Of a stretch of DNA of 64,000 nucleotides, positions 34,431-61,112 are shown in pieces. The notes beneath the pieces were generated by a model. It was not told the DNA's origin. It saw nothing but the letters and a program-made list of their open reading frames with translations, and ran no database searches. The stretch is from NCBI RefSeq assembly GCF_020532705.1, contig NZ_JAJAVD010000004.1, forward strand, positions 620,001 to 684,000, written 5' to 3'. The translations under genes and the position numbers were made by a program. The first letter of the stretch is position 1. Every line of letters starts with the position of its first letter. The stretch is from Methylobacillus caricis (GTDB lineage Bacteria > Pseudomonadota > Gammaproteobacteria > Burkholderiales > Methylophilaceae).

Positions 34431-34766
34431 TCAAATCCCCTTGATGTCTTTCCAGTCGATTTCTATGACTTGCCCCGGCCCCGCATCGATCAGGATGTAG
34501 AACTCGCCTTGAGGACGCTTGAAGCGGATGCGGGAATGGTCGTCCAGCTTGCCGGAAAACTGCATGTTTTCATCGTAGTCGATCACTTCCACCAGCGCGT
34601 TCAGCAGCGGATGGCCATCGGATTCGCCGCCCTCGCAGACGATTTCCCTGGCTTCCGTCCAGCATTTGCCTATTGGGATATGCACGCCGTGCGCCCATGC
34701 TGCTGAACTACCGAACAGTGCCAGCAGCATGATGACACGGGAAATGAAGGTGTTGACAACTTGCAT
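34431..34766 (-). CDS. Small periplasmic protein of an iron-uptake operon
   Basis: A precursor of 111 residues with a signal peptide ending AAWA-HG. The mature part begins HGVHIPIGKCWTEAREIVCEGG, with one cysteine pair, and continues as a compact beta-rich domain (LNALVEVIDYDENM, GEFYILIDAGPGQVIEIDW). It has no catalytic motif that I recognise. Its start lies one base after the stop of the DUF3325 fusion gene (TAG-C-ATG), so it is translationally coupled as the last gene of the PepSY operon. Such small proteins recur next to PepSY/DUF3325 genes; a role as periplasmic chaperone or metal/siderophore binder is a guess. Confidence 0.6.
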   Translation of the reverse strand: MQVVNTFISRVIMLLALFGSSAAWAHGVHIPIGKCWTEAREIVCEGGESDGHPLLNALVEVIDYDENMQFSGKLDDHSRIRFKRPQGEFYILIDAGPGQVIEIDWKDIKGI

Positions 34767-34767
34767 G

Positions 34768-35571
34768 CTATCTCTTCCCCTTGATGAACATTGCCGTAGC
34801 GGGAGATAGCCGCTCGATATCGAACGCCTGGTGATACACCTCGCCGTTCTTGCTTTCCACCGTCAGCCAGATCTGGTCTTCCAGCGTGGCAGCGGGAGGA
34901 ATGTAAATGGCCACTTCCCTTGTCCACCTTGCACCCTGGAACGCCAGGCCTGCAGCGCGCAGGGAACGCGGCTTGCGTATCTTGAGATAGGCGGCGCGGA
35001 TTTCGCCATCGCAGGCTTCGCAGAAGCGCAGATGGAATTCCTTGACCGGCGTCTTGCCGGCAAAAAACTCCGGGCCATCCTGGTTTTCCTCGGCGATCAC
35101 GAACGTCCAGGGGCCGATCTTGCCATGGATGGCGTCCTCGCGCAGCACGGCCTGCTCCGACATTTTCCAGGCGTTGAACGCCACCCATGCCGGCAGGGCA
35201 ATCAACGCCAGGACCAGCAAGGCCCGCAAAGGCAAGGGCAGGACTGTATCCCGCAATGGCGGCAGCGGCTTTTCCTTGCGCGGCGCATGCCTTGGCTGCA
35301 AAGGCCACCAGGGCAGCATGAACGCGATCAATACGCCCGCCACGCTCAGCCAGCCGAGCAGCACGACCGGGCCGATATTCCAGTGCCATCCTGCCACGCC
35401 GCATGCCAATGCGGTTGCCAGCAGGCTCCAGCCCAGCCAGTACACCCGCTTGCGCTGCCCTGCGGTCAGTGCGCGCCCGGTCAGCTCCCTGCCGTGCTTC
35501 TCCATGCTGGCGGCCAGCGCGGCAAAGCCTGCCAGGGCGAACAGCAGCACGGCGACATGGTATGCGGTCAT
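34768..35571 (-). CDS. DUF3325 membrane protein fused to a periplasmic CxxC domain
   Basis: The protein has 267 residues from ATG 35571. The N-terminal third carries three membrane helices of the DUF3325 type (MTAYHVAVLLFALAGF onward, to about 92). A Lys/Pro linker and a fourth helix (about 110-130) lead to a periplasmic domain of about 130 residues with F-C-E-A-C and a beta-rich end (VAIYIPP, QIWLTVES). DUF3325 proteins are usually only about 110 residues, so this is an apparent fusion. The four-base overlap with the DUF3649 stop (ATGA) shows coupling. The earlier in-frame start at 35925 lies inside PepSY and gives nonsense composition. Confidence 0.65.
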   Translation of the reverse strand: MTAYHVAVLLFALAGFAALAASMEKHGRELTGRALTAGQRKRVYWLGWSLLATALACGVAGWHWNIGPVVLLGWLSVAGVLIAFMLPWWPLQPRHAPRKEKPLPPLRDTVLPLPLRALLVLALIALPAWVAFNAWKMSEQAVLREDAIHGKIGPWTFVIAEENQDGPEFFAGKTPVKEFHLRFCEACDGEIRAAYLKIRKPRSLRAAGLAFQGARWTREVAIYIPPAATLEDQIWLTVESKNGEVYHQAFDIERLSPATAMFIKGKR

Positions 35572-35858
35572 GCGGCGCCTCCCGGCATCAATAGCCAGCA
35601 AGCCAGCGAAATCACGGCCAGGGGAACCAGCAGGCCGATCCAGGCCCGCGTCGCACTGCGTGCATGAAACACCCAGATGACGATGCCCGCGTAGACGGCA
35701 AAGCTCAACATGGTGGAAGCCAGCACTGCCTCGGCCCTGGGGACCGGCAGCAACAGCGCGAACAATATGGATACCGCGGAAGCCAGGGCATAGCCAGCGA
35801 CGACCGCGGCTGCTATGCGCGAGGCGACCGCCAGGCGGTAACGCGCCGTTTCGCTCAT
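35568..35858 (-). CDS. DUF3649 small membrane protein
   Basis: The protein has 96 residues with three hydrophobic helices. The DUF3649 pattern is SRIAAAVVAGYALASAV, then PRAEAVLASTMLSF and ARSATRAWIGL. Members are encoded beside PepSY proteins in iron-uptake loci. ATG 35858 has GGAGGG eight bases upstream and overlaps the PepSY stop by four bases. Confidence 0.75.
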   Translation of the reverse strand: MSETARYRLAVASRIAAAVVAGYALASAVSILFALLLPVPRAEAVLASTMLSFAVYAGIVIWVFHARSATRAWIGLLVPLAVISLACWLLMPGGAA

Positions 35859-37453
35859 GCCTTGCCCTCCTGCGTGAGCCACCTCTTCTTGAGTTTATGG
35901 GCAATATAGGCGAAGGCGGCGGCAAACGCCAGCATGGTCAGGTCGAAGCCCGCCAGCACCCAGTCGCCATGGGGCAGGGTGACGCCCAGGTGCTTGTCGG
36001 TGGTGAGGAAATTCAGCACGGGGATCAGGCCGAACGCCGCCACGGCGATATATAGGCTTTCCAGCCAGGAACGCTTGAGCGGGCGCAGGCCGGCATAGAT
36101 GAACATCCAGCCCCAGGCGGCAAACAGGCAATGCATTTCCCATTCGCCGCGGTCCGCCATTTCTATCGGCAGCAGGCGGTTGGCCCAAAAGTAGGCGGCC
36201 ACGGCCACCGGCAGGCCGACGATGGTGCCGACGTTGAGCACTTCCACCAGACGGTGGCCCAAGCCCGGCGTGACGCCGTGCTTGCCAAGGTAGTTGTTGC
36301 GGCGCTTCACCGTCCACAACACGAGGCCGGTGCCTATCATCGCGCAGCCGAGCACGCCGGAGAGGAAATACAGCCAGCGCAGCCACCACCCGGCAAAATG
36401 TCCTTCATGCAAGGCCAGCATGACGTTGCGCGTCAGCATGGAGGCATTGGTCTCATTGTCGAATTCCACCGGCTCGCCCGTCACCGCGCTGAAGCGTAGC
36501 TTGGGCGGAAAGCCGCGGTTGAGCGTGGTGGAGTAATCGCCGATGATGTCCACATACGGCCCTTCGGCGGCCGGGTGGCGCAACATCACCGTGGCGACGG
36601 GCACCTTGCCCCATGCCGCCTGGGCCGTCGCGATCATGTCCTCCACGGAAGCGGCAGGACGCTTCACCGGTTCAAAGACTTTATCCACCGGGTCGCGCTT
36701 GAACAATTCATCGTACAGCTGCCGCAAATGTTTTTCTGAAGAGCCGTAGACGACATTCTTGACGACCGGCATGTATTGGAAGGTGTAAAACACCAATCCG
36801 CTGTAGGTGATCATGAGGAAGAACGGCAATGCCATGACGCTCACCAGGTTGTGCGCGTCCAGCCAGCTGCGCTGGCCCTTGCCCGGGCGGAAGGTGAAGA
36901 AGTCCGTGAAAATCTTCTTGTGCGTGATCACGCCGCTGATGATCGCCAGCAGCATGAACATGGTGCATACGCCGACAATACGGAACGCCACGTCGTAATC
37001 GATGTAATGCAATGCGTAGTGCATTTCGTACAGCTCCCAGCCGCCGCCTGTTTCACGGCCTTCCACAGGCTGGTCCGGCACGCCGGTCACCGGGTCGAAA
37101 TTCTCGTTGCCGCGCCGTCCGCGCTCCAGCCCCGGGCGGGGCATGTCTTCCCAGGCGATACCGGCTTCGCGGTCCGTGCGTTCGGCCAGCCCGCGATGCG
37201 GCAAGGTGATGCTCCACATCCTGGCATCGGGCGCCACCTGCTCGAGCCGGCCGAAGGCCAGGTCCAGCACTTGCGCCGGCGGCACCTCGACCACTTTCTT
37301 GGGCAAGGGCAGTTCCGGCTGCATCCAGCGCGTAATTTCGGCATTCACATAGCCTGTCGTCCCGGTCACGAATACGAAAAACAACACCCAGCCGACCAGC
37401 AGGCCAACCCAGGTGTGCAGCCAGGCCATGCTCTGGCGAAAACCTTCTTTCAC
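35855..37453 (-). CDS. PepSY-associated transmembrane protein, putative ferric-siderophore reductase
   Basis: An inner-membrane protein of 532 residues starting at GTG 37453 (AAGGA seven bases upstream). The first helix (about 13-35) precedes a large periplasmic PepSY region with conserved histidines (MHYALHYIDY). Further helices follow (about 157-177 and 205-227), then a second PepSY-like segment with LHEGHFAGWW, and a C-terminal bundle of about five helices. Relatives such as FpvG and FoxB reduce ferric siderophores in or at the periplasm. It leads an operon with DUF3649, the DUF3325 fusion and a small periplasmic protein. A shared TGTCC-N17-GTCAT element lies about 145 bases upstream. Reductase activity is inferred from family and context. 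Confidence 0.8.
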   Translation of the reverse strand: MKEGFRQSMAWLHTWVGLLVGWVLFFVFVTGTTGYVNAEITRWMQPELPLPKKVVEVPPAQVLDLAFGRLEQVAPDARMWSITLPHRGLAERTDREAGIAWEDMPRPGLERGRRGNENFDPVTGVPDQPVEGRETGGGWELYEMHYALHYIDYDVAFRIVGVCTMFMLLAIISGVITHKKIFTDFFTFRPGKGQRSWLDAHNLVSVMALPFFLMITYSGLVFYTFQYMPVVKNVVYGSSEKHLRQLYDELFKRDPVDKVFEPVKRPAASVEDMIATAQAAWGKVPVATVMLRHPAAEGPYVDIIGDYSTTLNRGFPPKLRFSAVTGEPVEFDNETNASMLTRNVMLALHEGHFAGWWLRWLYFLSGVLGCAMIGTGLVLWTVKRRNNYLGKHGVTPGLGHRLVEVLNVGTIVGLPVAVAAYFWANRLLPIEMADRGEWEMHCLFAAWGWMFIYAGLRPLKRSWLESLYIAVAAFGLIPVLNFLTTDKHLGVTLPHGDWVLAGFDLTMLAFAAAFAYIAHKLKKRWLTQEGKA

Positions 37454-37598
37454 GACAAATCCTTGCTCGATTCAATCAAAAGGCGGATAGGGCACTAGGC
37501 CATGTCCGCCTTCAATAATAGAAAATTGATGAGATTGTATATCATTCACACCAACTACCTGCACCGAGGATGCGCTAAACAATCCCCCTCTATTAGTA

Positions 37599-37625
37599 AT
37601 GACACTTGAGAATCAAAAAAGGACA
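37599..37625 (-). promoter_or_regulatory. Candidate FecI-type sigma promoter of the PepSY operon
   Basis: On the minus strand TGTCC, 17 bases, GTCAT. The same boxes with the same spacing precede the receptor gene (40248-40274) and the DUF4198-MacAB operon (48918-48944). With the efflux-operon copy, 31 of the 37 bases from TGTCC onward are identical. Confidence 0.6.
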
Positions 37626-37730
37626 CCCTGACATGCAAAATTATTTTTGGCGGGCGGTCTGCGCCCATCCTTTAGGCAACTGCCACTTGATGGCGGGGCA
37701 TAAAGGATTGGAATTCTTCCTTGATGACAA

Positions 37731-37779
37731 CATCCCTCATCCCTGAGAATTAAATAGTGCTCGCGAGGGATGAGGGATG
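37731..37779. repeat. Perfect 14-base inverted repeat built of tandem CATCCCT units
   Basis: CATCCCTCATCCCT pairs exactly with AGGGATGAGGGATG across 21 bases. A third diverged unit (AGAGATG) follows. It lies 23 bases beyond the receptor stop and probably folds as its transcript end, though without a strong T-run. Apart from this and the promoter element, the 349-base gap (37454-37802) shows no gene. Confidence 0.6.
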
Positions 37780-37802
37780 AGAGATGCTTGAAGATGATAG
37801 GC

Positions 37803-40211
37803 TTAGAAACTACCGCGCAAGGTCAGCATGAAGTTACGCGGCTCGCCAAAGTAAGTCTGTCTTGTCCACCCTTCGACCTTGGAGAAATACTTCTTGTCGA
37901 ACAGGTTATTGCCAGTCAGGCTAAGGTCCCAATGCGGATTGATGTGGTACGCCACTTGCAGGGATGCCAGCGTATAACCGCCTTGTTTCCAGGTTGTGTC
38001 GCCATCGACCGCATAGACGCCACTATTGATATTGAGCCCGCCCCCTATGCTCCATCCCTGGGCGGTATCCCCACTGAGCTTGTACTTGCTCCATAGTTTG
38101 AACAGATGTTTGGGATTGTTGGGGGCAAATCTGGCTCCTTGCAGCGTTTCTTCTGCATCGAGGTATTTTGTGTCGGTATAAGCATAACCTGCCATCAAAT
38201 CCAACTTCGGCATCACGCGTCCGCTGATCTCGCTTTCAAAACCCTGGCTGCGGACTTTGCCGGAGGCCAGCGAGAAATCCGGGTTACTCGGATCGCTGAC
38301 GGGACGGTTTTCATCAATGATGCGGAATATGGCGGCGTGCATGTTCAGGCGCCCCTCATCGAACTCGCCTTTGATGCCTAGCTCTGCTTGCTTGCCGACC
38401 CGGGGTTTCAATATGCTGAAATCCGCTTTCTGTGCAGTTTGCGGTACGAATATGTCGCTGTAACTGCCATAAACCGAGAACTGCTGGTTCACATCGACAA
38501 TCAGGCCGGTATAGGGCGTGAATTTCTGCGTGATATTGTCGTGGGCAAGCGGGTTGTTCTTGTCTTCCGTCTTCCAGTTGCTGAGCCTGCCGCCCAACAC
38601 CAGCTTGGTGTTCTCCAGCACTTGCAGGATTGCGCGTCCATAAATGCCGGTCTGGGTAGTCTTGGTGATACTGGGGTCATCAAAAACGAAATCAGGCTTG
38701 GCAATATCGTTATCGGGGTCGAAAATGTTCTGTGTCGGCCCGCCGGCGTATGCATAGTTGGTTGAGAACCGGTAAATACGCGAGTTGATGCCCAGCATGA
38801 ATTGATGCTCGCTGCCCATCAGCTCCAACGGCTTGCTGACGTAGGCATCCATGCCATAATCATGAGCACGCGTCTTGGCACTCAAAGAGCGGGTGGCAAA
38901 ATTGCCAGTAGTACGGTCGATGTATCCATTGCCATTGATGAACTCCACATCCATGTCTCTGTCCAGGGCGCTCAACCTGAGCTTGGCTTCCCCGCCGGTT
39001 TCGAATTTACGCTCAAGTTCCACAAAGTAACTTTTACTGTGTTCGGTCTTGTTGTCCCAGCGGGCACCGATAAAGGTCGAGCGGCTGATATCAGGCAAGC
39101 CTCCATCTGGGTATGTTGGCAACCCGATGGTAGGCACGACATCCATGTTTTGGATCGTCACACCTGCCGACACAGTGGTATTGGGTGCCAAGTCATACTC
39201 CAGGGTGCCGTAGAGCAAGGGTTTGCGCGAATTGACATGATCAATGAACGATCCACGATCATCATAAGCAGCCACCAGCCTCCCTCGCAACCTGCCTTCG
39301 CCATCCAGCGCGCCTGTGATGTCAAACTCGCCGCGGTAGGTATCCCAGGAGCCAGCCAGAAAATTTGTCTTGATTGCAAAATTAGACAATGCCCGTTTCC
39401 GCACCAGGTTAATCGTACCTCCTGGTTCTCCAGCCCCTTGCAGTAAGCCTGCCGCACCGCGCAACACCTCGACTCGGTCATAGGTGGCAAGATCATAACT
39501 GCTGTTACCCCACGTCCCCTGGTCTGTGTTGACCGCGATGCCATCCACCTGCAATGCCTGGATTTGATAGCCACGCATCATGAAGGCATTGGTGCCGCTG
39601 CCATAACTCACTACCGTCACGCCAGACGTCTGCTCCATGGCTTCCGCTACAGTGGTCATGTTTTGATCCTCAATCCGTTGGCGCGTGACAATACTGATGG
39701 ATTGGGGAATATCACGCAGGCGCTGTGCTCCCTTGCCAATGGCAACCCGGTTGGATGTATAGGATCTGCTGTTTTCGGTCGTAATATCCGCTTCATTTCT
39801 TGTGGTCACAGCCACTTCCGGCAAAACATCAGCATCCCTCTGCACGCTGGTCAAGGTGACCTTCTTCAATGTATATCCGCCATCTGCGGCAGGAATCGCT
39901 TGCAGGCCTGTATCACGCAGCAAGGCGTCGAACCCTTGTTTGATGGTATAGCTGCCCTTGAGACCGTTGCTGGTCTTGCCTGCGGTCAGCGCTGGGTCAA
40001 ATGAAAGCACGACGCCGGCAGCCTGGGCGAAATTGTTGAGTACGCTGGTCAGTGAACCGGCGGGAATATCGTATGCATGTTGGCTTTCCGCTTGGCTGCC
40101 GGTGTCGGCCTTCGCCGATTGCGGTATGTAAAAAAACGTGACGGATGAAAATGCCAGCAGCATGCGCAAGGCGATGGCCAAAGGCTTCTGCTTGAGGTGG
40201 AATGACTGCAT
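37803..40211 (-). CDS. TonB-dependent siderophore receptor with N-terminal signalling domain
   Basis: The precursor has 802 residues. A signal peptide ends near SAKA-D. The secretin/TonB short N-terminal (STN) domain spans about 46-97 (HAYDIPAGSLTSVLNNFAQAAG, GSYTIKQGFDALL). Next come a TonB-box region, a plug with DIPQSISIVTRQRIEDQ and VEVLRGAAGLLQGAGEPGGTINLVRK, and a barrel ending LTLRGSF. STN domains relay ligand binding to FecR-type regulators, encoded immediately upstream (fecR 40292, fecI 41266). The plug resembles FhuE/FpvA-type ferric hydroxamate or mixed siderophore receptors. The exact siderophore is unknown. Confidence 0.92.
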   Translation of the reverse strand: MQSFHLKQKPLAIALRMLLAFSSVTFFYIPQSAKADTGSQAESQHAYDIPAGSLTSVLNNFAQAAGVVLSFDPALTAGKTSNGLKGSYTIKQGFDALLRDTGLQAIPAADGGYTLKKVTLTSVQRDADVLPEVAVTTRNEADITTENSRSYTSNRVAIGKGAQRLRDIPQSISIVTRQRIEDQNMTTVAEAMEQTSGVTVVSYGSGTNAFMMRGYQIQALQVDGIAVNTDQGTWGNSSYDLATYDRVEVLRGAAGLLQGAGEPGGTINLVRKRALSNFAIKTNFLAGSWDTYRGEFDITGALDGEGRLRGRLVAAYDDRGSFIDHVNSRKPLLYGTLEYDLAPNTTVSAGVTIQNMDVVPTIGLPTYPDGGLPDISRSTFIGARWDNKTEHSKSYFVELERKFETGGEAKLRLSALDRDMDVEFINGNGYIDRTTGNFATRSLSAKTRAHDYGMDAYVSKPLELMGSEHQFMLGINSRIYRFSTNYAYAGGPTQNIFDPDNDIAKPDFVFDDPSITKTTQTGIYGRAILQVLENTKLVLGGRLSNWKTEDKNNPLAHDNITQKFTPYTGLIVDVNQQFSVYGSYSDIFVPQTAQKADFSILKPRVGKQAELGIKGEFDEGRLNMHAAIFRIIDENRPVSDPSNPDFSLASGKVRSQGFESEISGRVMPKLDLMAGYAYTDTKYLDAEETLQGARFAPNNPKHLFKLWSKYKLSGDTAQGWSIGGGLNINSGVYAVDGDTTWKQGGYTLASLQVAYHINPHWDLSLTGNNLFDKKYFSKVEGWTRQTYFGEPRNFMLTLRGSF

Positions 40212-40247
40212 TGAAATAAGGCTCCCTGAATGTTGTATTCACTATCG

Positions 40248-40274
40248 ATGACGCACCAGTCAGGAAGAGGGACA
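40248..40274 (-). promoter_or_regulatory. Candidate FecI-type sigma promoter of the siderophore receptor
   Basis: On the minus strand TGTCC, 17 bases, GTCAT, ending 36 bases before the receptor ATG in the fecR-receptor gap. It shares both boxes and the spacing with the elements at 37599 and 48918. It also shares TAGTGA three bases past GTCAT with the latter. Confidence 0.6.
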
Positions 40275-40291
40275 GTGAATCCCGGATATTT

Positions 40292-41260
40292 TTACTTCGC
40301 AGGTTTGACGACGGTCAGCCAAGGCGTGTATTGCATCATGACAACGGGGGTTGTATCTGCGAGCACCTTGAGGGTATGGGCGGTATCATCCAGCGCGAAT
40401 ACGCCGGAAACATGGACGTTGCCAATTGCCTCGTCGTTGAAGTAGAGATGCCCGCGATGGTAGCGCTGCAACTCCTTCAGCAACAATGGCAGCGGCATGT
40501 CGTCCGCCACCAGCTTGAAGCGCGTCCAGGCGGTTTCGGCCTGGATGTCGACCTGGGCCTTGGTGAGCGCCAGGCCGCGTTGCAGGCGGGCCGACTCGCC
40601 AGGCTGCAGGGTCACGCACTCTGACTGCAAGCCGCAGGCCTCGACACTGGACTCGATGACAGTGACCTGCGTCACTTTCTTCTGCCGCCTGACGGCATAT
40701 TGCGTGCCCAGCGCCCGCGCCGCTCCTTCTGCGGTTTCGACGATGAACGGCCGCTGCTTGTCCTTGGCCACTTCCACCAGTATCTTGCCTTGCAGCAATT
40801 CTATCCGGCGCTGCCCGTGACTGAAATCCACATTCACCGCACTGTGGGTATCCAGCGTCACCCGGCTGCTGTCCGCCAACCGGATCACGCGCTGCTCGCC
40901 GATGCCGGTGTTGTAATCCGCCCTCATGACGCGGGCAGGCTGGGTCTGCGACGCCAGGCCAGCCGCCAGAATGACTACCAGCAATGACAATATCCTGATG
41001 GCCGTTTTCATACGTTTGCGACGCGCCGGCCTGAGCACTGCCTCCAGCACAGTCTTGCCTGGCCCATCCTGCACCTCGTCAAAACCCGACCAGAGCTTTT
41101 CCATACGGGCATAGGCTGCTGCATGGCTCGCATCTGCCTGGCGCCATTGTTCAAACTCTTTATGCTCTGCCTCATTGGCATCACCAGAGTGGATATGTGC
41201 ATGCCAATTGGCAGCCTGCTCGATGATGCTGGAAGGAAGATGGGAAGCGGAATCCTGCAT
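40292..41260 (-). CDS. fecR: FecR-family anti-sigma/transmembrane regulator
   Basis: The protein has 322 residues. The N-terminal cytoplasmic FecR_N region has the W-x-H and FEQWRQADASHAAAYARMEKLW pattern. One membrane helix (about 86-104) follows a basic RRKRMK cluster. The periplasmic FecR domain (about 110-215) has GEQRVIRLADSSRVTLDTHSAV and a RPFIVET strand, and a C-terminal STN-like domain reads FNDEAIGNVHVSGVFALDD. It receives the signal from the receptor STN domain and controls the sigma factor. It starts five bases after the fecI stop. Confidence 0.93.
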   Translation of the reverse strand: MQDSASHLPSSIIEQAANWHAHIHSGDANEAEHKEFEQWRQADASHAAAYARMEKLWSGFDEVQDGPGKTVLEAVLRPARRKRMKTAIRILSLLVVILAAGLASQTQPARVMRADYNTGIGEQRVIRLADSSRVTLDTHSAVNVDFSHGQRRIELLQGKILVEVAKDKQRPFIVETAEGAARALGTQYAVRRQKKVTQVTVIESSVEACGLQSECVTLQPGESARLQRGLALTKAQVDIQAETAWTRFKLVADDMPLPLLLKELQRYHRGHLYFNDEAIGNVHVSGVFALDDTAHTLKVLADTTPVVMMQYTPWLTVVKPAK

Positions 41261-41265
41261 GATGT

Positions 41266-41796
41266 TCAGGCACCCTCGGCATAGGCAATGTCATGGCAAT
41301 GCACCATTGCCGCGGCGATATATTGCTTGACCATGCTGCCAGACACCCCGAGCACCTCGCCGATCTCAGGATAAGTGAGATTTTCGAAACGGCTCAGCAT
41401 AAACGCCTGGCGCGGTTTCTCAGGCATGCTTTCGAGCATGGTTGCAACCAGGGTTAGGGTTTCCACAATAGTGAGATGCTGCTCGGGCGAGATGGCATGG
41501 ACTCCGTCCTGAGCCAGTGCCAAGGCTTCGATATAAGCTTGTTCAACCTTCTGCCGTCGCACCTGGTCGATGATCAGCCGGGTTGCCGTTGTTGTCAGAT
41601 AAGCACGCGGCGTCCTCAACGCAGCAAGATCCACGCGCGATGCCGACAGCAGGCGGCAGAACGTCTCCTGTGTCAAATCAGCCGCCTGGAAATGGCAACC
41701 CAATTTGTGGCGCAACCAGTTCTGCAACCAGCCTTGATGGTCGAGATAGAGGTTGCGCAGCAGTTCTGTCTGGGAAGGAAGATTTGCTGAAGACAT
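41266..41796 (-). CDS. fecI: FecI-type ECF sigma factor
   Basis: The protein has 176 residues. Region 2 includes LYLDHQGWLQNWLRHKLG, DLTQETFCRLL and LRTPRAYLTTTATRLIIDQVRR. Region 4 includes LESMPEKPRQAFMLSRFENLTYPEIGEVLGVSGSMVKQYI, the helix-turn-helix that reads the -35 box. A Fur-like box lies 24 bases upstream of the ATG, implying iron repression. Likely targets are the units preceded by TGTCC-N17-GTCAT. There is no clear ribosome-binding site. Confidence 0.93.
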   Translation of the reverse strand: MSSANLPSQTELLRNLYLDHQGWLQNWLRHKLGCHFQAADLTQETFCRLLSASRVDLAALRTPRAYLTTTATRLIIDQVRRQKVEQAYIEALALAQDGVHAISPEQHLTIVETLTLVATMLESMPEKPRQAFMLSRFENLTYPEIGEVLGVSGSMVKQYIAAAMVHCHDIAYAEGA

Positions 41797-41820
41797 AGCA
41801 GCGAAACTACAATCAGTAAA

Positions 41821-41835
41821 TAGTAATAGTTCTCA
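41821..41835 (-). promoter_or_regulatory. Fur-box-like operator upstream of fecI
   Basis: On the minus strand TGAGAAC-T-ATTACTA resembles the 7-1-7 Fur consensus TGATAAT-N-ATTATCA. A possible -10 (TAAAAT) overlaps its upstream edge. The position fits repression of fecI by iron. Confidence 0.55.
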
Positions 41836-42031
41836 TTTTATTCTATGAAACATATCTTAAGCAATAGAAAAACTGCCATCTCATTCTATGTAGGATGGTA
41901 GGCCATGGCTGATTTAATATTTAGTATGCCCTGACCAGCAAAAAGAAGGCCAGCAATCAATGCCAGCCTCTGGAATGACATTATTGGCGGAGAAAGTAAG
42001 AGTGCCAAGAATGTATAACCGCTATCGTGTG

Positions 42032-42074
42032 TTAAATAAGAATCATTGTCAACATTATTCGCAACAATGTTGAC
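42032..42074. promoter_or_regulatory. Fur-like site next to a long dyad in the fecI upstream region
   Basis: Bases 42032-42050 match 13 of 19 positions of the classical Fur box. They overlap GTCAACATT / AATGTTGAC, a perfect nine-base inverted repeat with nine bases between (42048-42074). It lies in the 450-base gap 41797-42246, which holds no convincing gene. Confidence 0.35.
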
Positions 42075-42207
42075 TTCATATCTCTGCGTAGTCACCAAAT
42101 CATCATTTGGTCACAATAAAAATGTCATGTTCCCATTGCAAAATGGCACCAAGTAGCGTGGGTTATATCAACATTCCCCCCGAAGGCTAAAGATCACTCC
42201 CGCTACC

Positions 42208-42229
42208 AGGCCCTGTTCAAACAGGGCCT
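42208..42229. terminator. Hairpin downstream of the receptor remnant
   Basis: AGGCCCTGT-TCAA-ACAGGGCCT is a perfect nine-pair stem, 18 bases past the remnant's stop codon. The T-rich side (TTCTTAC) is on the plus strand, so orientation is unclear. Confidence 0.55.
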
Positions 42230-42246
42230 TCTTACTTGGCAGCAGG

Positions 42247-42684
42247 TTAGAAATTGCCGCGCAGTGTCAGCATGACGCTTTGCGGTTCGCCATAAAAGGT
42301 TTGCAATGCGTCAAGATAGTAACGCTTGTCGAAGAGATTGTTGATATTCAACGCTGCCGACCAGTGCTCATCTATCCTGTAACTCGCCTGCGCACTCCAG
42401 ACCGCATATCCACTCTGCTTACGCCTGACATTATCTGGCGTTGTTGTAAATGAAGTTTCACTCTGCGATACCACCCCCTCGCCAATCGATACGCGCTCCA
42501 GCTCGCCCGGCAGCCTGTAAGTATTGTTATGGTCCCCATTCAAGCGCGCGGCTGCTATCACCCGCTGTGACATATTTGGCTGAATTGAAGGTATAGCCTG
42601 CGAAACTTGCCAGCCCGGCAAATAGTCAGCCATAGTGATCACTTGAGCCTGACCAAGCCCGGACGATCTCGGTGGAATAGACAC
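42247..42684 (-). pseudogene. C-terminal remnant of a TonB-dependent siderophore receptor
   Basis: Only the end of a receptor survives. From about 42525 to the stop it reads as the last barrel strands: YRLPGELERVSIGEGV, SAQASYRIDEHWSAALNINNLFDKRYY and FYGEPQSVMLTLRGNF. This closely parallels both complete receptors in the window. The first 50 residues of the open frame do not resemble a receptor, and there is no plug, STN domain or signal peptide. It lies just beyond the fecI promoter region, so a receptor gene was probably lost here by deletion, or a copy was left after duplication. Confidence 0.75.
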
Positions 42685-42706
42685 TCGACTGCTTGAACAG
42701 GGATAC

Positions 42707-43624
42707 TCAACTCAGGCTGATATAAAGAGAAGCTTCCTGTTGTGCCTGCACATGGCCCCGGTGTGCCGCGCAGCGCAGCCACCAGCGTCCCACGGAGAGG
42801 CTGGCGATGTCTCCCTGGCCCAATAGGAGCCCGGCGTATGCATAGGCATCATGCTCATCGCCCTGTTGCGCGCATTTGTGCAAGGCTTCCATGCCCACTT
42901 GGCGCAAAGCCGGGTGAGGGTGCTTGAGCAAGTTGGCCGCCATGGTACGGGAAAATGCCAGGTGCGCATTTTCAAGCGCTTCTCGCATCCAATGGCGTGC
43001 ATTTTCCGCCTGGCCGCGCTCCGCCAGCATGAGGGCATAGTTGTATTGCCCGCGGAAATCGCCTGCCTCGGCCGAACGGCGGTAATAGTCAAAGGCTTTT
43101 TCCTGGTCCTGCGCTCCCAGCCAGCCTTCCTCGAAGAACCTGCCGACCACGCCCAGCGACTTGGCGTGCCCCAATTCGGCAGCTTTGTGATACCAGTCGA
43201 ACGCCTGCTGCTCATTTTTCTCCACGCCCAACCCATGCAACAATAGGTTGGCATAGTTGTACATGCCCCAATCCAGCCCCTGGTTGGCTGACATGCGGAA
43301 CCAGTACACAGCGCAAGCGTGATCCACCGGACCGCCCCAGCCCTGGTCGTAGGCGCGCCCGAGCATGTTCATTCCGAGCAGATGGCCTGCTTCCGCGGCC
43401 TTGCGGAACCAGATTCTGGCCTGCCTGGGGTCTGGCTCCAGGCCATGCCCGTCAAGATAAGCCTGCCCGAGCAGCGCCTGCGCCTCTGGCTCCCCTTGTT
43501 CAGCCAACGCCCGTATCCATTGCACGGCCTCGCGCGGATCGCCCGCGAGACGGCGCTTCAGCTCTTCCGCACTGATGTTGTTCAGGTGTTCAGGGGTAAT
43601 GGATTGGGCGCTGCTGGCAGACAT
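42707..43624 (-). CDS. Sel1-repeat protein
   Basis: A soluble protein of 305 residues made of about six Sel1-like helical repeats, each with the A-xx-G-xx-xAQxxLGxxYxxG pattern (for example EAQALLGQAYLDGHG, AKSLGVVGRFFEEGW and WYHKAAELGHA). There is no signal peptide or enzyme motif. Sel1 proteins are protein-protein adaptors. It sits between the receptor remnant and the efflux operon. Whether it belongs to the iron regulon is unknown; no TGTCC-N17-GTCAT element precedes it. Confidence 0.8.
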   Translation of the reverse strand: MSASSAQSITPEHLNNISAEELKRRLAGDPREAVQWIRALAEQGEPEAQALLGQAYLDGHGLEPDPRQARIWFRKAAEAGHLLGMNMLGRAYDQGWGGPVDHACAVYWFRMSANQGLDWGMYNYANLLLHGLGVEKNEQQAFDWYHKAAELGHAKSLGVVGRFFEEGWLGAQDQEKAFDYYRRSAEAGDFRGQYNYALMLAERGQAENARHWMREALENAHLAFSRTMAANLLKHPHPALRQVGMEALHKCAQQGDEHDAYAYAGLLLGQGDIASLSVGRWWLRCAAHRGHVQAQQEASLYISLS

Positions 43625-43743
43625 GCTGAGTGAGAACAGGAATTAATCAGGAGGTGACTATACACCAAATCCTGCCCAACGATCCTGTCCAATGCCGTCA
43701 ACACGCACGCCCTGTGTTACAGCTCTTGACATTGAACGGTTTC

Positions 43744-45135
43744 CTATTGCGAGCGTTGCCAGCCTCCGCCCAAGGCGCGGTAAAGATCGACCGCGGCTTG
43801 CAGGCGTTGCTGGCGCAGCTGCAGATCCAGGTCCTGTGCCGTGAACAAGGTGCGTTGCGTATCGAGCATGGTCAGCATGGTTTCCGCGCCCGCCTGGTAA
43901 CGAGACTGGGCGAGGGCAAAGGCACGCTCGGCATTCTCCAGCGCCAGGGTTTGTGCGGTGGCCTGTTGTTCCAGCCCGGCAATCCGGTTGAGCGCCGCCT
44001 CGACGTCGCCCAGCGCGGCAATGATGGCTTGGCGGTAATTCGCCAGCAGCTCCTTGCGGCGCGCAATCGCAAAGTCGCGTTGTGCCGCCAAACGGCCGGC
44101 ATTGAAGATGGGAGCCGTCAGCCCGGCCGCCAGGTTGTACAACGGCGCATCGAAGAAGTCACGCAAGTGCTCACTATGGCTGGAGAACCCGCCCGTCAGG
44201 CGGATGCTGGGCAGCATGGCGGCGCGCGCCACCTGGATGTCGGCATCGGCGGCGAGCAGCATGGCCTCGGCCAAGGCGATGTCCGGCCGGCGGACCAATA
44301 GTTCGGAGGGCACGCCTGCGTCAACCACCGGCAGTTGCAATTGGCGCACGCTGTTCTCCATGAGCTGCAACTCTCCCACTGGCATTGACGCCAAGGTTGC
44401 CAGGGCAGCCTCGGCATTGCCTTGCTGTTGCCGCAGCAAGGCCACGGTACGGCGCTGGCTTGCCACCAGGCCCTGCTGCTGGGCCTGCTCGATAGCGGTA
44501 GCGGCCCCTGCACGGTAGCGCGACTCGACCAGGGCCAATACCCGCTCGGCGTTCTCCAGGTTGCGCCTGGCAATGCCCACTCTTTCGGCCAGGCCGACTG
44601 CCTCCACCCAGGTCATGGCGACGTTGGCGCCTAGCGTCACCCGTATGCTGTCGCGATCGAACTCGGTGGCGCGGAGATTGCTCAACGCTCCCTGGTAGGC
44701 GGCGCGGTTCTTGCCCCAGAAGTCGATTTCGTAACTCGCGAGCAAACCTGCGGAATAGGCGCTCAGGCGGTTGGCATCGCTGCTTCCCCCCAGCCGCTGC
44801 TGGCGGCCGATATTGCCTGCGGTGGAGACTTCCGGCAGCAGGGGCGCCCCGGCCACCACGGTCAAATGCTGGGCCTGCTCGACACGCGCAACGGCAGCCG
44901 CAATATCGTAGCTGTCCAGTTGCGCCTGCTGCACCATGCCCGCAAGCGCATTGCTGCCGAATGACTGCCACCAGTCGCCATCCCGCGCCTGGGCCGCTTC
45001 AAGCTCAATGCTGGACGCGTTATTGCGCCATTGCGCTGGCAGGTTGCGCAGGCCGTCCTGCGCCTGCAATTGCGGCGGTTTGACATGGGTACAGGCAGGC
45101 AATAGCAACAGCAGGAATAAACGCAGGACTTTCAT
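43744..45135 (-). CDS. Outer-membrane efflux lipoprotein, NodT/OprM type
   Basis: The precursor has 463 residues from ATG 45135. A signal peptide and lipobox LLPAC end at about residue 17. Two outer-membrane-factor repeats follow, with long coiled-coil helices. Typical segments are DWWQSFGSNALAGMVQQAQ, RRPDIALAEAMLLAADADIQVARAAMLPSI, LTAPIFNAGRL and a second-half ALAQSRYQAGAETMLTMLDTQRTLF. It forms the TolC-like exit duct for MacAB. It starts one base after the macB stop. The longer frame starting at 45237 lies inside macB and has no signal peptide at its start. Confidence 0.9.
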   Translation of the reverse strand: MKVLRLFLLLLLPACTHVKPPQLQAQDGLRNLPAQWRNNASSIELEAAQARDGDWWQSFGSNALAGMVQQAQLDSYDIAAAVARVEQAQHLTVVAGAPLLPEVSTAGNIGRQQRLGGSSDANRLSAYSAGLLASYEIDFWGKNRAAYQGALSNLRATEFDRDSIRVTLGANVAMTWVEAVGLAERVGIARRNLENAERVLALVESRYRAGAATAIEQAQQQGLVASQRRTVALLRQQQGNAEAALATLASMPVGELQLMENSVRQLQLPVVDAGVPSELLVRRPDIALAEAMLLAADADIQVARAAMLPSIRLTGGFSSHSEHLRDFFDAPLYNLAAGLTAPIFNAGRLAAQRDFAIARRKELLANYRQAIIAALGDVEAALNRIAGLEQQATAQTLALENAERAFALAQSRYQAGAETMLTMLDTQRTLFTAQDLDLQLRQQRLQAAVDLYRALGGGWQRSQ

Positions 45136-45136
45136 G

Positions 45137-47083
45137 TCACTCACTGGCAAGGGCGACCACCGGGTCAAGCTTGGCGGCCTGGCGCGCAGGCATGAAACCA
45201 AAGACCAGCCCGGTAACCACGGAACAGAAGAAAGCACCGATGATGGCGCTCAGGGAAAAGATCACGGGCATGCCCCAGAACACCAGGATGATGCCTATCG
45301 CCAGGCCGAACACCACCCCGGTGACGCCTCCTACCGTGGTGACCAGCACCGCCTCGGTGAGGAATTGCTGCAGGATGTCGCGCTGGCGCGCGCCGGTCGC
45401 CATGCGGATGCCGATCTCGCGCGTGCGCTCCCGCACTGTCATCAGCATCACGTTCATCACGCCTATGCCGCCGACACCTAGCGAAATGACGGCAATCAGG
45501 GCCAGCATCATGCTCATGCTGTCCTGTGTCTTGGCCTGGGCGGCAATCCAGGCAGCCGCGTTCTGCAGGCCGTAATCCCGGACTTGGTGCCGGGAAAATA
45601 GTAAATCATCCACGGCTTTTGCCGCTGCATCCACCTGCTTCATGTCGCCCACTTCCAGGGTGACATAGGAAGGGTCGCGCTCGCCAAACACCCGCATGCT
45701 GGCGGTGGAATAGGGAATGACAACCAAGTCGTCGTCGCTCTGGTCGCCCGTCACGGCGCCTTTTGAACCCAGCACCCCGATCACCTGGAACGGCACGTTG
45801 CCGATCAGGATAGTCCCGCCCACCGGGTTTTCCACGTCCGGCATCAGGTTCTGCGCCAGGCGCGGGCCGATGACCGCCACCGTCGCCATGCGCTGGTCAT
45901 CCTCTTCGGTAAAGAAAGACCCATTGACCACCGGCCAGTTCAACATGCGCGACATGGCCGCGCCCGACCCCTTGATGCGGGTCTGCACATCCTCGTTGCC
46001 ATAGCGTACGACCTTGCTGCCGGAGAGGTTGGGCAATACATAGGTGATCTGCGGTAGCTCGCCCAGCGCTTCAAGGTCGGCAGTGTTGATGCCGCGGCCC
46101 GGCACGCGCGAACTTTCAGGCTTGGAGTTCACGTAGATATGATTGGTGCCAAAGGCGCCCAATTCCGCCACCACGCGCTCCTTGGTACCCATGCCCACTG
46201 CCATCATCACGATCACCGAGGCCACGCCGATGATGATGCCGAGCAAGGTCAGCGCCGTGCGAAAGCGATTGACCCACATCACGCGCCAGGCCGCCCGGCA
46301 TGCCTCCAGGATGTCGCCGCGCCACTGCACCTGGCCGGCATCCGCTTCCAGCCTGAACTCAGGCGCCGCATCACCCGCGGCACGTTGCACGGACCCGGTA
46401 TCGCTGATGACGTGGCCATCGCGGATCTCTATGACGCGCCGCGCATTGGCTGCCACGTCGCGGTCATGGGTAATGAGGATGATGGTATGGCCTGCATCTG
46501 CCAGCTCGTTGAGCAGGCGCATGACTTCCTCGCCGCTGCGCGAGTCGAGCGCGCCGGTCGGCTCATCGGCCAGGATAATGCGGCCGCCGTTCATGAGCGC
46601 CCGCGCAATCGACACGCGCTGCTGCTGGCCGCCGGACAGTTGCTTGGGGCGATAGTGCAGCCGCTCCGCCAGCCCCAGGCGGCCAAGCAATGCCCGGGCA
46701 CGCTCCGCCCGCTCGTGTTCCGGCATGCCGGCATAGAGCGCCGGGATTTCCACGTTTTCCTGCGCGGTCTCGGTCGCGATCAGGTGGTAGCCCTGGAAGA
46801 CGAAGCCAAAGGCTTCCCGGCGCAGCCATGCCAGCTCGTCCGCGTCCATCTCCGCCACATTGCGCCCGGAAAAACGGTGCTGGCCCGAGCTGGGCTTATC
46901 CAGGCAGCCCAGGATATTCATGAGGGTAGACTTGCCAGAGCCGGAAGCGCCGACGATCGCCACGAACTCGCCCGCATGGATATCCAGTGAAATGCCGTGC
47001 AGGATATCCACCCGGGGCTTGTCCCCGCCGCCGTAGTGCTTGCGGATGTCCACCAGCGAGATCAGGGGCTGGCGGTCACTCAA
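45137..47083 (-). CDS. macB: MacB-type ABC exporter (PvdT-like)
   Basis: The protein has 648 residues, the same length as E. coli MacB. The ATP-binding domain has [34 protein letters not shown] and ITHDRDVAA. Four membrane helices follow: one near 290 before a large periplasmic MacB domain, and three at the end with [30 protein letters not shown] 47083 overlaps the macA stop (TTGA) and gives the family-standard start [14 protein letters not shown]. MacB exporters extrude macrolides, toxins or siderophores from the periplasm; PvdT of Pseudomonas recycles pyoverdine. Context favours the siderophore role. Confidence 0.92.
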
Positions 47084-48240
47084 AACTGGAATCTCCAGGG
47101 GCTGGGCTTGGGCGCCTTGTCCGCCGTGATCAATCGCTCGCCCTCCGAGAGGCCGGACAGCACTTCGGCGCGCAATCGCGTGCGTACGCCTGTCGTGACG
47201 CCATGCCACACCACCTTGCCGTCCCCGCTCAGCACGCGCACCTTGTGCTTGCCAGCCTTGGCATCGACTTCCGTGAGCGCCACGACCGGCACGGTGAGAA
47301 CCTGTCTGGCCGCTGCCACCACGAAAGAGGTTTGCGCGGTCATCTGCGGCATCAGCTCGCCATCGCTGTTGTCAACATCGAACAGCACGGTGTAGAGCAC
47401 GACCTTGTTGCTGCTCGGCATTTGCGTGGCGGTAGCGCTCGCCCCCTCTGGTTTGGGCGGCGCCGGTAGCACCTGGCGCACCCTGCTGCTCCAGCGGCGC
47501 TCGTCCCCGCCCAGGGTCTTGAAATAGACTTGCATGCCAGGCTTGACATGCCGCACATCGGCTTCGGAAACGTCTGTCCATACGGTCATGGTGGACAGAT
47601 CGGCAATCCGCAGCAGGGTAGGGGTCTGGTAGGTGGCATTGAGGGTCTGCCCGGTCTTGGCCTCGATGGATACCACCGTTCCAGACATGGGGGCATAAAT
47701 CTTGGTGAAGCCGAGCAGGGCTTCATTCCCCTGCAGGGTCGATTGGGTCTGGTCTATCTGCGCCTTGAGGTTGTTGACCCTCGCCGCCGCGGTTTTCAGG
47801 GCAGCCTGCGCCTGCTGCACCTCCTCGGTACGCGTCGAGCCGTCCGCCTGCATCTGCTGCTGGCGCTCATGCTGCTGGCTGGCCAGCACGTATTGCGCCT
47901 CCTGCTCCTGCAGCTGGGCCTGCAATCCGGCCAGGGCGGCACGCCCGGCATCGACGGTCGCCTGCGGCACGCGCGGATCGATCTCGGCCAATAGCTGGCC
48001 TTTCTCGACCGTATCGCCAGGCTGCACATGCAAGGCCAGGATCTGGCCGGATACCTGCGCGCCGACATCGACATAACTGAGCGGCTGCAAGGTGCCGATG
48101 GCCGTGACGTTGTGCTCGATATCCCCGCGTTTGACCAGCTCGATCTCGAAAGCATCAGCCGGGTCCTGGCCGCGTGCCAGCCAGACTGCGCCAACCACCG
48201 CCAGCACGACAGCCAGCAGTGCGATCCTCCCCCGGCTCAT
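47080..48240 (-). CDS. macA: MacA-type periplasmic adaptor (PvdR-like)
   Basis: The membrane-fusion protein has 386 residues. An N-terminal membrane anchor (about 5-22) is followed by a lipoyl half ([30 protein letters not shown]), a long coiled-coil hairpin rich in Gln/Ala (about 90-165), the second lipoyl half ([22 protein letters not shown]) and beta-barrel domains. It links MacB to the outer-membrane factor. Its ATG directly follows the stop of the DUF4198 gene, and its last bases overlap macB. Confidence 0.92.
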
Positions 48241-48867
48241 CTAGCGCTCGACCTCGAAGCTCAATGTCGCAGTATGCCGTACATCATCATACTTGGTGCC
48301 CTGGTAGGTCATGCTGCCATTGACGCGCGCAGTGACTTCAAGGATATAGATGCCCTGGAACGGGGTGGTGATCGTCACCGTGCCATCTTCCGACGGATTG
48401 AGGGTGCGGATCCAGCCCTCGCTGGTGCTGACATTGACCTGCGAGGCCGCGACCGCGTTTCCCTTCCATACCAGCCTGAAGGTGTTGCCGTTGGCTTCGG
48501 TCGGCACCAGCTCGAGGTCATTCACGGCCTTGGTTTCACTGCGACCGAATTTTGCCTGGTAGAAATGCAGCACCTTGTCCTGGCCCACCGCTTGCGCCGT
48601 CAGCCTGATATCGCCACTGGCCGGTGCCATCACCTGCACGCGATCGGCCTCAACCTTGGCTGCCAGCTCCTTGCCGTCAGCCAGCAGCCCCCGAAGGGCG
48701 GTCAAGCCGGCAGGATCGAGCCGCGCGGACTCGTAAAGCCCCAGGTAGGCTTTCGCGCCGCCCTCGTCCGGTTCCAGCCAGAGATAATTTGCACCCGCAC
48801 TGAAGCTCGTGAGCAATGCTATCGCAGCGATGGTCCAGCGGGCAGCCAGGGATTGTCTTGTTCTCAT
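48241..48867 (-). CDS. Periplasmic DUF4198 family protein
   Basis: The precursor has 208 residues from ATG 48867 (GGAAAA upstream). A signal peptide ends near FSAGA-NY. The mature start NYLWLEPDEGGAKAYLGLYESA is the DUF4198 pattern, followed by beta-rich repeats (GDIRLTAQAVG, TFRLVWKGNAV, GIYILEVTARVNG). DUF4198 proteins are often linked to metal uptake. It is the first gene of a four-gene operon with macA, macB and the OMF and has the shared sigma element 50 bases upstream. It may bind the siderophore or metal before efflux; this is inference. Confidence 0.75.
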   Translation of the reverse strand: MRTRQSLAARWTIAAIALLTSFSAGANYLWLEPDEGGAKAYLGLYESARLDPAGLTALRGLLADGKELAAKVEADRVQVMAPASGDIRLTAQAVGQDKVLHFYQAKFGRSETKAVNDLELVPTEANGNTFRLVWKGNAVAASQVNVSTSEGWIRTLNPSEDGTVTITTPFQGIYILEVTARVNGSMTYQGTKYDDVRHTATLSFEVER

Positions 48868-48917
48868 GTGTTTTCCATTCTCGTTATTGCGTGAGTAAAA
48901 ATGCGCTCTCACTAGTA

Positions 48918-48944
48918 ATGACACGCGAGAATGAAAAAAGGACA
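48918..48944 (-). promoter_or_regulatory. Candidate FecI-type sigma promoter of the DUF4198-macAB operon
   Basis: On the minus strand TGTCC, 17 bases, GTCAT, 50 bases before the DUF4198 ATG. The flanks AGGGTGTCCTTTTTT and GTGTCATTACTA are identical to the PepSY-operon element. Confidence 0.6.
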
Positions 48945-59472: not shown

Positions 59473-59516
59473 TGATTTCCCTTATTGGCCATTGAAAACA
59501 GGTTCCCCTATTTCCT

Positions 59517-59543
59517 ATGCCACACAAAAATCAAAAACAGCTC
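59517..59543 (-). promoter_or_regulatory. Weak candidate sigma promoter of the second receptor
   Basis: On the minus strand GAGCT, 17 bases, GGCAT, with a TTTTTGATT spacer start like that of the 37.6 kb element. The boxes differ from TGTCC/GTCAT, which would fit a different FecI-type sigma. It is a single weak match. Confidence 0.25.
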
Positions 59544-59590
59544 AGTGAATATGAATTAATCTCGTTTAAATGATGCCATGCTCAGGTATG

Positions 59591-60571
59591 CTAGCTTGCA
59601 GGAAACAGCCTCACCCAGAACTTGGTCAGTGACTTCACCTTGAGTTGCAATGTATTGCACAACATATCAATTACCTTGTCTGTGTCATCCAATGGATAAG
59701 TACCTGATACTTTGAGGGCAGCAATGCTTTGATCGCAGCTCAGGCTCCCTTGCCGGTGGCGATTGAGTTCAGCAAGAAACTCTTCAAGACGCATGTCATC
59801 CGCTACGATCATATGCTCGACCCAGGCAGTATCGTTATCGTTCACAATCTCAATTGGTGTCACCATGTGCTTGGTAAATGCCAGCTGCTCGCCCTTGTCC
59901 ATACGTACACGTATGCCCATCTCGGAAGGCACGACTTCAACTGCGCCTCCCCATACGCCGACCCTGATCGGACCATCTTTCTCATTGGTCAATTGACGCA
60001 CCATGAAGCGGGTACCAAGCGCGCGTATGCTTCCCTGATCCGTGGCCACCAGGAATGGGCGCGGGGGGGCCTGCCTGTCCGGTGCTGTCGTCACCAGGAT
60101 TTCGCCATGCACCAGCATGACGATGCGTTGATGCTGTGTATAAGCGATATTGATAGCACTTGAAGAATTGAGCTCTACCTCCGTGCCGTCATCCAGCGCC
60201 ACCCGGCAGCGCTCACCCACGCCAGTGCTATGGTCGGCATTGAGTTGCCACCAGGGCAGTTTTTCCTGGGCCACAAAGGCTGAGCTGCCGGCAAACAGGA
60301 GTGTTGCCAGCATCTTGATCGCCCGGCGGCGCTTGATCGAACCTCTTGGGGCGAGTGTTGCATGCGCAAGCGGCGAAGAAAGCCCGCTCAGCTTTTCTCC
60401 CAGACGTTCTATATGCTGCCATGCACGTTCATTGTCCGGATGCGCCTCTCGCCACCTCTGCCATTGGTTACGAATCTCCTGAGTGACATGGTCTGATTGC
60501 AGCTCAACCAGCCATTCTGCCGCCTGGCGGCTGGTTTCCGCAGGTATTGATTGCGGCTCCATGGACACCAT
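59591..60571 (-). CDS. fecR: FecR-family regulator (second)
   Basis: The protein has 326 residues. The FecR_N region (AAEWLVELQSDHVTQEIRNQWQRW, NERAWQHIERL) is followed by a twin-arginine-like cluster KRRRAIKMLATLL leading into one membrane helix (about 85-103). The FecR domain has GERCRVALDDGTEVELNSSSAI and RPFLVATDQGSIRALGTRF. A C-terminal STN-like domain reads DQSIAALKVSGTYPLDD. The start overlaps the fecI stop (TAATG). It works with the receptor at 57013. Confidence 0.92.
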   Translation of the reverse strand: MVSMEPQSIPAETSRQAAEWLVELQSDHVTQEIRNQWQRWREAHPDNERAWQHIERLGEKLSGLSSPLAHATLAPRGSIKRRRAIKMLATLLFAGSSAFVAQEKLPWWQLNADHSTGVGERCRVALDDGTEVELNSSSAINIAYTQHQRIVMLVHGEILVTTAPDRQAPPRPFLVATDQGSIRALGTRFMVRQLTNEKDGPIRVGVWGGAVEVVPSEMGIRVRMDKGEQLAFTKHMVTPIEIVNDNDTAWVEHMIVADDMRLEEFLAELNRHRQGSLSCDQSIAALKVSGTYPLDDTDKVIDMLCNTLQLKVKSLTKFWVRLFPAS

Positions 60572-61107
60572 TAACTACCCTCCCCAAAACAACATTGCTG
60601 CACAGCGCGCACGATATAGCGTTTAACCGTGGAAACTGAAACTCCCAGTTGCCGCGCAATCTCTGCCTGGCCAAGGCCATCAAGCTGTGACCACAGAAAT
60701 GCCTTGCGTACATCACCAGGTAAACCATCTAGAAGACCGTCAATCTCGATCAAGGTTTCAAGAACCATCATCCGGACCTCTGGGGAGGGGATATCTTGAT
60801 CCGGCAATATCGACAGGGCATCCAGATATGACTGCTCAATTTTCCGGCGTCGGTAGAAATTGGAAAGCAGGCCACTGGCTACCGTAGTCAGAAAAGCACG
60901 TGGTTCCCGCAAAGTCGCAGTATCTGTGCTAGTTAGAACCCGCATGAAAGTATCATGGGTCAGGTCAGCTGCATCAAAACTATTGCCTAATTTCTTGCGT
61001 AGCCAATGATTGAGCCAGCTGTGATGGTCAGAATAGAGCGTTTTGAAAGCGTTTGCAGGTGATGATGGAAGCGACACAGCAGGGAAAATTGCCGGAGAAA
61101 CCAGCAT
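60571..61107 (-). CDS. fecI: FecI-type ECF sigma factor (second)
   Basis: The protein has 178 residues. Region 2 includes LYSDHHSWLNHWLRKKLG, DLTHDTFMRVL and LREPRAFLTTVASGLLSNFYRR. Region 4 includes LDGLPGDVRKAFLWSQLDGLGQAEIARQLGVSVSTVKRYI. ATG 61107 begins only about 15 bases after the predicted transcription start, so the mRNA may be nearly leaderless. An in-frame GTG ten codons in is an alternative. The Fur box over its promoter implies iron control. Confidence 0.92.
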   Translation of the reverse strand: MLVSPAIFPAVSLPSSPANAFKTLYSDHHSWLNHWLRKKLGNSFDAADLTHDTFMRVLTSTDTATLREPRAFLTTVASGLLSNFYRRRKIEQSYLDALSILPDQDIPSPEVRMMVLETLIEIDGLLDGLPGDVRKAFLWSQLDGLGQAEIARQLGVSVSTVKRYIVRAVQQCCFGEGS

Positions 61108-61112
61108 CCATT

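Follow-up and report, generated by a model that had tools for sequence, protein, structure and literature searches.

We have found that a promoter-like element with the core TGTCC-N17-GTCAT precedes three separate transcription units in a 64,000-nucleotide stretch of the genome of the methanol-using bacterium Methylobacillus caricis (hereafter the window), and that a 32-base form of this element occurs again outside the window, in front of a candidate small RNA. The explanation that we favor, and that we hold to be probable, is that these elements are promoters for FecI-type iron-starvation sigma factors, with TGTCC at about -35 and GTCAT at about -10, that they are shared by a siderophore-receptor unit, a PepSY unit, a DUF4198/macAB unit and the candidate small RNA, and that they are read by several FecI proteins.

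The boxes, the 32-mer and the genes behind them

The window contains exactly three matches to TGTCC-N17-GTCAT, all on the minus strand, where 0.08 would be expected and none of 100 shuffles reaches three. They lie at 37599-37625, 40248-40274 and 48918-48944, which is 145, 36 and 50 nt before the start codons at 37453 (PepSY), 40211 (receptor) and 48867 (DUF4198), just as the initial annotation had described them in orientation, spacing and distance. Its count of 31 matching bases out of 37 for the PepSY and DUF4198 copies captured a real similarity, which on recounting comes to 33 of 37 in the best 37-base window. We regard the boxes as confirmed, and most likely they are FecI-type promoters. 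A scan of the whole 2.97-Mb genome, which the initial annotation had proposed, gave 11 exact matches against 7 for the reversed pattern, and we therefore gave up searching genomes with the bare box; when a single mismatch is tolerated, the window itself holds 7 matches against 3.9 expected. The bare 5+5 box is not diagnostic beyond this locus, and is weakened by the initial annotation's own standard, under which many random genomic matches would count against it. Seven of the eight matches outside the window each fall within an open reading frame of at least 100 codons, and the eighth is the third copy of the 32-mer, an element that this weakening leaves unaffected.

The receptor copy (40248-40274, minus strand) shares only the two cores with the others and has a spacer of its own, whereas the PepSY and DUF4198 copies have in common the 32-mer TGTCCTTTTTT-NN-TTCTC-NN-GTGTCATTACTA, at 37594-37625 and 48913-48944, respectively (both minus strand). 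Exactly three copies of the 32-mer are present in the window's Methylobacillus genome, and none with one to three mismatches. Among the family's 187 genomes, a slightly looser form with up to three mismatches yields 16 copies, spread over 7 genomes from 2 of 24 genera, and the reversed control yields none; a more diverged copy in G065, detected only by a matrix, brings the element-bearing genomes to eight. In a genome collection from which records of the window's own genome may have been left out, a shortened form matched nine stretches exactly, eight from Methylobacillus and one from Methylophilus. The copies lie 5' of PepSY_TM or DUF4198-like genes, or at a third locus in the neighbourhood of a D-lactate-dehydrogenase-like gene (ldhA); in G064 the copy lies 5' of a gene that by eye resembles PepSY and is upstream of the DUF4198 gene.

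Ungapped comparison of five Methylobacillus species gives mean pairwise identities of 0.92-1.00 for the -35, T-tract, TTCTC and -10 blocks and 0.84-1.00 for the five bases just past the -10 block. Identity falls to 0.30-0.51 in the stretch 60 to 11 nt upstream and to 0.34-0.38 farther downstream. Within the 32-mer, the spacer is conserved beyond what a two-box sigma promoter would need, and a further DNA-binding protein could be involved. In G054, also a Methylobacillus, the PepSY and DUF4198 genes, the 32-mer and the RNA are all absent together. Counting against the simple picture, G174-G176, from another genus, have related PepSY (46% identity) and DUF4198 (51-54%) genes that are not preceded by the element.

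The receptor box belongs to a FecI-type system in which three minus-strand genes are encoded together: an ECF sigma factor of 176 residues (41266-41796; Pfam Sigma70_r2 and r4_2, TIGR02937 above cut-off, the FecI models scoring below theirs), a FecR-type regulator of 322 residues (40292-41260; Pfam FecR, DUF4880) and a TonB-dependent siderophore receptor of 802 residues (37803-40211; Pfam STN, Plug and barrel, TIGR01783 above cut-off), which has the N-terminal STN signalling domain (PF07660, E=2.7e-9). Behind the PepSY copy, likewise on the minus strand, lie a PepSY_TM protein of 532 residues (35855-37453; Pfam PepSY_TM, 7.6e-65), a candidate reductase of the PiuB/FpvG/FoxB type, and the rest of its operon (34431-35882), made up of a DUF3649 gene (35568-35882) and two small genes with no Pfam match. 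Behind the DUF4198 copy, again on the minus strand, are an exported protein of 208 residues (48241-48867), whose DUF4198 label is weak (E=0.0085, 16.7 bits against a family cut-off of 34), a MacA-like adaptor (47080-48240; TIGR01730 above cut-off, the MacA model below its own), a MacB-like ABC exporter (45137-47119; MacB_PCD, ABC_tran, FtsX) and an outer-membrane efflux channel (43744-45237; TIGR01845 above cut-off, OEP). The start codons of the last two are uncertain, and the channel frame as listed overlaps macB.

The number of FecI genes between the PepSY and DUF4198 operons differs: M. arboreus and M. gramineus each have five, whereas M. rhizosphaerae and the window each have one. Variable receptor cassettes sit between constant accessory operons that keep the 32-mer. 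We note several features of these loci. Islands of FecI-FecR-receptor systems, species-specific in number, surround the PepSY and DUF4198 operons at L137-L146 and at G064:C1:2129000-2180000. Just upstream of fecI, at 42247-42684, is a C-terminal remnant of another TonB-dependent receptor (a Pfam barrel match covering the final 45 positions), as though an adjacent receptor system had disappeared from this site. The PepSY leader contains a hairpin (37482-37512; AGGCGGA..TCCGCCT followed by TTTT) ~30 nt before the GTG start that is recognisable in five species, and which the terminator scanner does not report as a terminator. The PepSY gene behind the element at L158 (G055:C28) shows just 40% identity across 377 residues, with an in-frame stop inside the matching stretch.

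A candidate small RNA behind the third 32-mer

The third copy of the 32-mer (G000:C1:116043-116074) is followed by a unit of ~120 nt that consists, in order, of a 5' hairpin, a short invariant GCGA/TCGC hairpin, the run CATTTCCCTGA, unchanged across the five species, and a terminator-like hairpin with a T-tract. In an alignment of the five sequences 92% of cells are paired and 6 of 24 pairs show double changes, a covariation matched by 1 of 500 shuffles, and sliding the structure by one to three columns lowers the pairing to 40-68%; these pairing figures are tilted in favor of an RNA structure because the structure was derived from the same alignment. Folding energies lie 1.7 to 3.3 standard deviations below those of mononucleotide shuffles. 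No reading frame longer than 12 codons lies inside the unit; some run off its end, and none is shared. Judged by its sequence, the unit has what would be expected of a small RNA gene, namely its own promoter, a conserved structure with a terminator-like end and no shared frame. We therefore regard it as a candidate small RNA and as the most interesting member of the regulon, lying outside the window. The initial annotation had tied the three operons into one regulon; the regulon would be larger than was supposed, since the third 32-mer, which lies beyond the stretch available to that annotation, precedes the candidate RNA.

A search with Rfam 15 of the window and the five loci found only a tRNA and gave no match at gathering score for the RNA unit. 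A covariance model finds a single copy per genome in the five element-bearing Methylobacillus and none in G054, and among the 187 family genomes it gives no other match beyond one marginal hit, with filters that may lose weak relatives, including those in Methylophilus. We rejected the marginal match (G172, E=0.013), which overlaps the 3' end of an apparent frame, has no element and by eye is a terminator look-alike. G054 has ldhA, at 88% identity, with unrelated DNA in front and neither the element nor the RNA. Because it keeps ldhA in the absence of the element, the RNA and the operons, the RNA goes with the accessory operons and not with ldhA, an association drawn from this one genome that lacks them.

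These observations bear on an alternative that we consider unlikely, in which the third copy simply drives the D-lactate-dehydrogenase-like gene and the RNA-like unit is the untranslated leader of that gene. The gene does lie 199-268 nt past the element in all five species, but the terminator-like hairpin with its T-tract stands between the two and is kept through paired changes, conservation past the hairpin is poor, and G054 retains the gene without either element or RNA. We thus disfavor the third copy as an ldhA promoter and continue with the unit as a candidate small RNA.

Sigma factors that may read the element

Receptor leaders were taken from nine genomes: six Methylobacillus, in which 72 of 80 FecR matches were used, and three Methylophilus, in which 30 of 38 were used. 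The eight excluded Methylobacillus matches are fragments or FecR-like domains, one of them (L024) without a preceding FecI gene, and for the remaining eight Methylophilus matches only the sigma gene was taken in. The 102 FecR matches gave 97 sigma genes and 85 usable receptor leaders, and by eye related sigma genes have related leaders. The element matrix scores above zero in 22 of the 85 receptor leaders and in none of 74 regions upstream of other genes in the window's genome; the reversed matrix does so in 3 of the 85 leaders. Fisher's test (p = 2e-7, leaders against other upstream regions) overstates the difference because orthologous leaders are not independent. Nevertheless, no background region reaches the matrix level that a quarter of the receptor leaders reach, and the 32-mer resembles FecI-receptor promoters more than it resembles other upstream DNA. 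From this likeness we infer recognition by FecI-type sigma factors, with start sites to match.

Of the 85 leaders, 5 contain the exact core, TGTC[CT]-N17-GTCAT, and they are precisely the leaders of the five orthologues of the window FecI (its own, those of M. arboreus at 83% and M. gramineus at 78% identity, and two from Methylophilus at 70% and 64%). Across the five, TGTCC (0.92) and GTCAT (1.00) are kept and the 17-nt spacer drifts (0.54), so that a sigma-specific promoter is conserved 5' of the receptor gene in all five orthologues. Because the exact core is confined to the leaders of its orthologues, the window FecI is the best candidate reader of the 32-mer. It is quite unlikely, however, that this FecI alone reads all copies as a private regulon. 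G055, G057 and G063 (92%, 99% and 99% complete) keep the 32-mer, yet none of their examined sigma genes is an orthologue of the window FecI, the best match being 41-51% identical; five of the eight element-bearing genomes have the window FecI. In addition, the TTCTC-NN-GTG part of the 32-mer is missing from the receptor promoter of the window FecI and present in other FecI leaders, L020 and L109 among them. Since the 32-mer persists in these three genomes in the absence of the window FecI, another factor must read it too. The additional reader is most likely another FecI paralogue, and the 32-mer is probably read by more than one FecI. The initial annotation's proposal of a FecI-type sigma regulon thus gains from the promoter likeness, whereas the part of it in which the single sigma gene among the operons defines the regulon does not hold for the three genomes without an orthologue.

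An alternative reader may be encoded by a second FecI-type sigma gene in the window (60571-61107, minus strand), which has orthologues in all five element-bearing Methylobacillus (69-83%), with only 49-54% identity in Methylophilus. The receptor promoter of this second system (59507-59545, minus strand) has the same architecture, with GTGGCAT instead of GTGTCAT. Directly 5' of the second fecI, at 61108-61132, we observe a near-palindromic, Fur-box-like sequence, TAATGAGATTTATTCTCATTA, that overlaps a TATAAT-like hexamer; it is one of five weak matches in a Fur-box scan of the window, where 1.7 would be expected. No one sigma factor could be assigned to all copies: none of 104 FecI sequences has relatives of at least 60% identity in all eight element-bearing genomes, the widest reaching six, and at 50% identity some clades reach all eight. 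The reader of the element is therefore not fixed, and since the survey covered FecR-linked sigma genes, another sigma factor may be the reader.

We also give little credence to the idea that a non-sigma regulator binds the 32-mer, or that an ECF sigma factor without a FecR neighbour uses it as its promoter, given that element-like sequences are specific to FecI-linked receptor leaders and sit where the receptor promoter must be, even though TGTC recurs in the 32-mer 21 bp apart as a direct repeat, the spacer and the bases just past GTCAT are nearly fixed, and no FecR-linked sigma clade covers all eight genomes.

Proposed shared control of iron uptake and a possible role for the RNA

If the elements are FecI-type promoters shared among receptor systems, one core would serve the siderophore receptor, the PepSY_TM operon for ferric-siderophore reduction and the DUF4198-like/macAB/channel operon for export, and a fourth unit, behind the third exact 32-mer, would give a small RNA of ~120 nt. 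The receptor, on binding its ferric siderophore, would signal via the STN domain to FecR, which would activate its FecI. RNA polymerase carrying this FecI would then raise expression of its own receptor and, through the 32-mer, of the RNA and the common machinery for periplasmic iron reduction and export of the empty carrier. Because one or more further FecI paralogues probably recognise it as well, the 32-mer would be a shared promoter for several receptor systems.

It is possible to imagine receptor mRNAs as targets of the RNA, a speculation that we offer as a lead only. The invariant run of the RNA is complementary to CAGGGA-type ribosome-binding sites, which are common in receptor leaders: with start codons picked by a simple script, CAGGGA is found at 14 of 57 receptor starts against 3 of 174 other starts. 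Pairing with a 14-nt segment of the RNA averages -10.5 kcal/mol for the 57 receptor starts and -7.8 kcal/mol for the 174 others, and 1 of 200 permuted segments does as well. Part of the CAGGGA bias is also seen in Methylophilus receptors, where the RNA is lacking, with CAGGGA at 3 of 26 (p=0.14 for the difference from 14 of 57) and AGGGA at 10 of 26 against 27 of 57. A wobble-tolerant 13-mer search of six genomes returned 20 matches, compared with 10 when the pattern was reversed; five of the 20 are the RNA genes, so that the excess of long complements (15 against 10) is small and not clearly above the control. A fuller scheme, which we think rather doubtful, is that in Methylobacillus a new small RNA is transcribed from a FecI-type promoter common to several paralogous signalling systems, and that its invariant run UUUCCCUGA would pair with CAGGGA-type ribosome-binding sites of siderophore-receptor mRNAs; a successful uptake system would in this way induce the reductase and exporter and damp translation of competing receptors. 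We note separately that the predicted start of the receptor transcript often complements the ribosome-binding site (CCCTGAT/ATCAGGG or CCTTGTG/CACAAGG, for example in L020, L070, L114 and L019). A 6-mer complement is present in 30 of the 85 leaders, compared with 11.2 (maximum 22) in 300 shuffles, and these may be hairpins that hide the ribosome-binding site.

The system in the window resembles E. coli FecI-FecR-FecA in the order of the sigma, regulator and receptor genes, in the STN domain of the receptor and in an ECF-type promoter directly 5' of the receptor gene. Unlike in E. coli, related promoters also precede two accessory operons and the RNA-like unit, and the box sequence varies among FecI clades; E. 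coli FecI controls a single promoter, according to a review of ECF factors in iron regulation (PMC9249621), the main text of which contains neither 'sRNA' nor 'PepSY'. Two further papers (PMC10866019, PMC6954188) report periplasmic reduction of ferric siderophores for the PepSY_TM type (PiuB/FpvG/FoxB) and recycling of the empty siderophore in Pseudomonas by the ABC exporter PvdRT-OpmQ. As with FpvG and PvdRT-OpmQ in the Pseudomonas pyoverdine system, a PepSY_TM protein here accompanies an ABC exporter, an adaptor and an outer-membrane channel, and by analogy the MacAB-like pump may recycle siderophores as an equivalent of PvdRT-OpmQ. Unlike in the pyoverdine system, the two operons described here lie on either side of interchangeable receptor systems linked to FecI and have a promoter element in common.

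Small RNAs that respond to iron or are driven by ECF sigma factors, among them RyhB, PrrF, MicA and RybB, are controlled by Fur or RpoE. The candidate RNA is like them in that its RNA-like unit is short, ends in a terminator-like structure and follows a promoter of the stress type, and unlike them in that its promoter is FecI-like and it matches no Rfam family at gathering score. Among the open-licence papers listed on FecI-type sigma factors and small RNAs, overlapping FecI regulons, receptors and sigma factors of Methylobacillus, and small RNAs of Methylophilaceae, the titles and the beginnings of abstracts mention no such RNA or shared promoter.

FecI-type systems are usually drawn as one sigma factor and one receptor promoter. 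A common promoter could let several FecI systems switch on the same downstream steps, and this could explain how genomes with 8-24 FecR matches each manage with common reductase and export operons. A single signal may govern the release of iron, the export of the carrier and an RNA regulator together, and the candidate small RNA and the shared promoter bear on how bacteria might rank their receptors.
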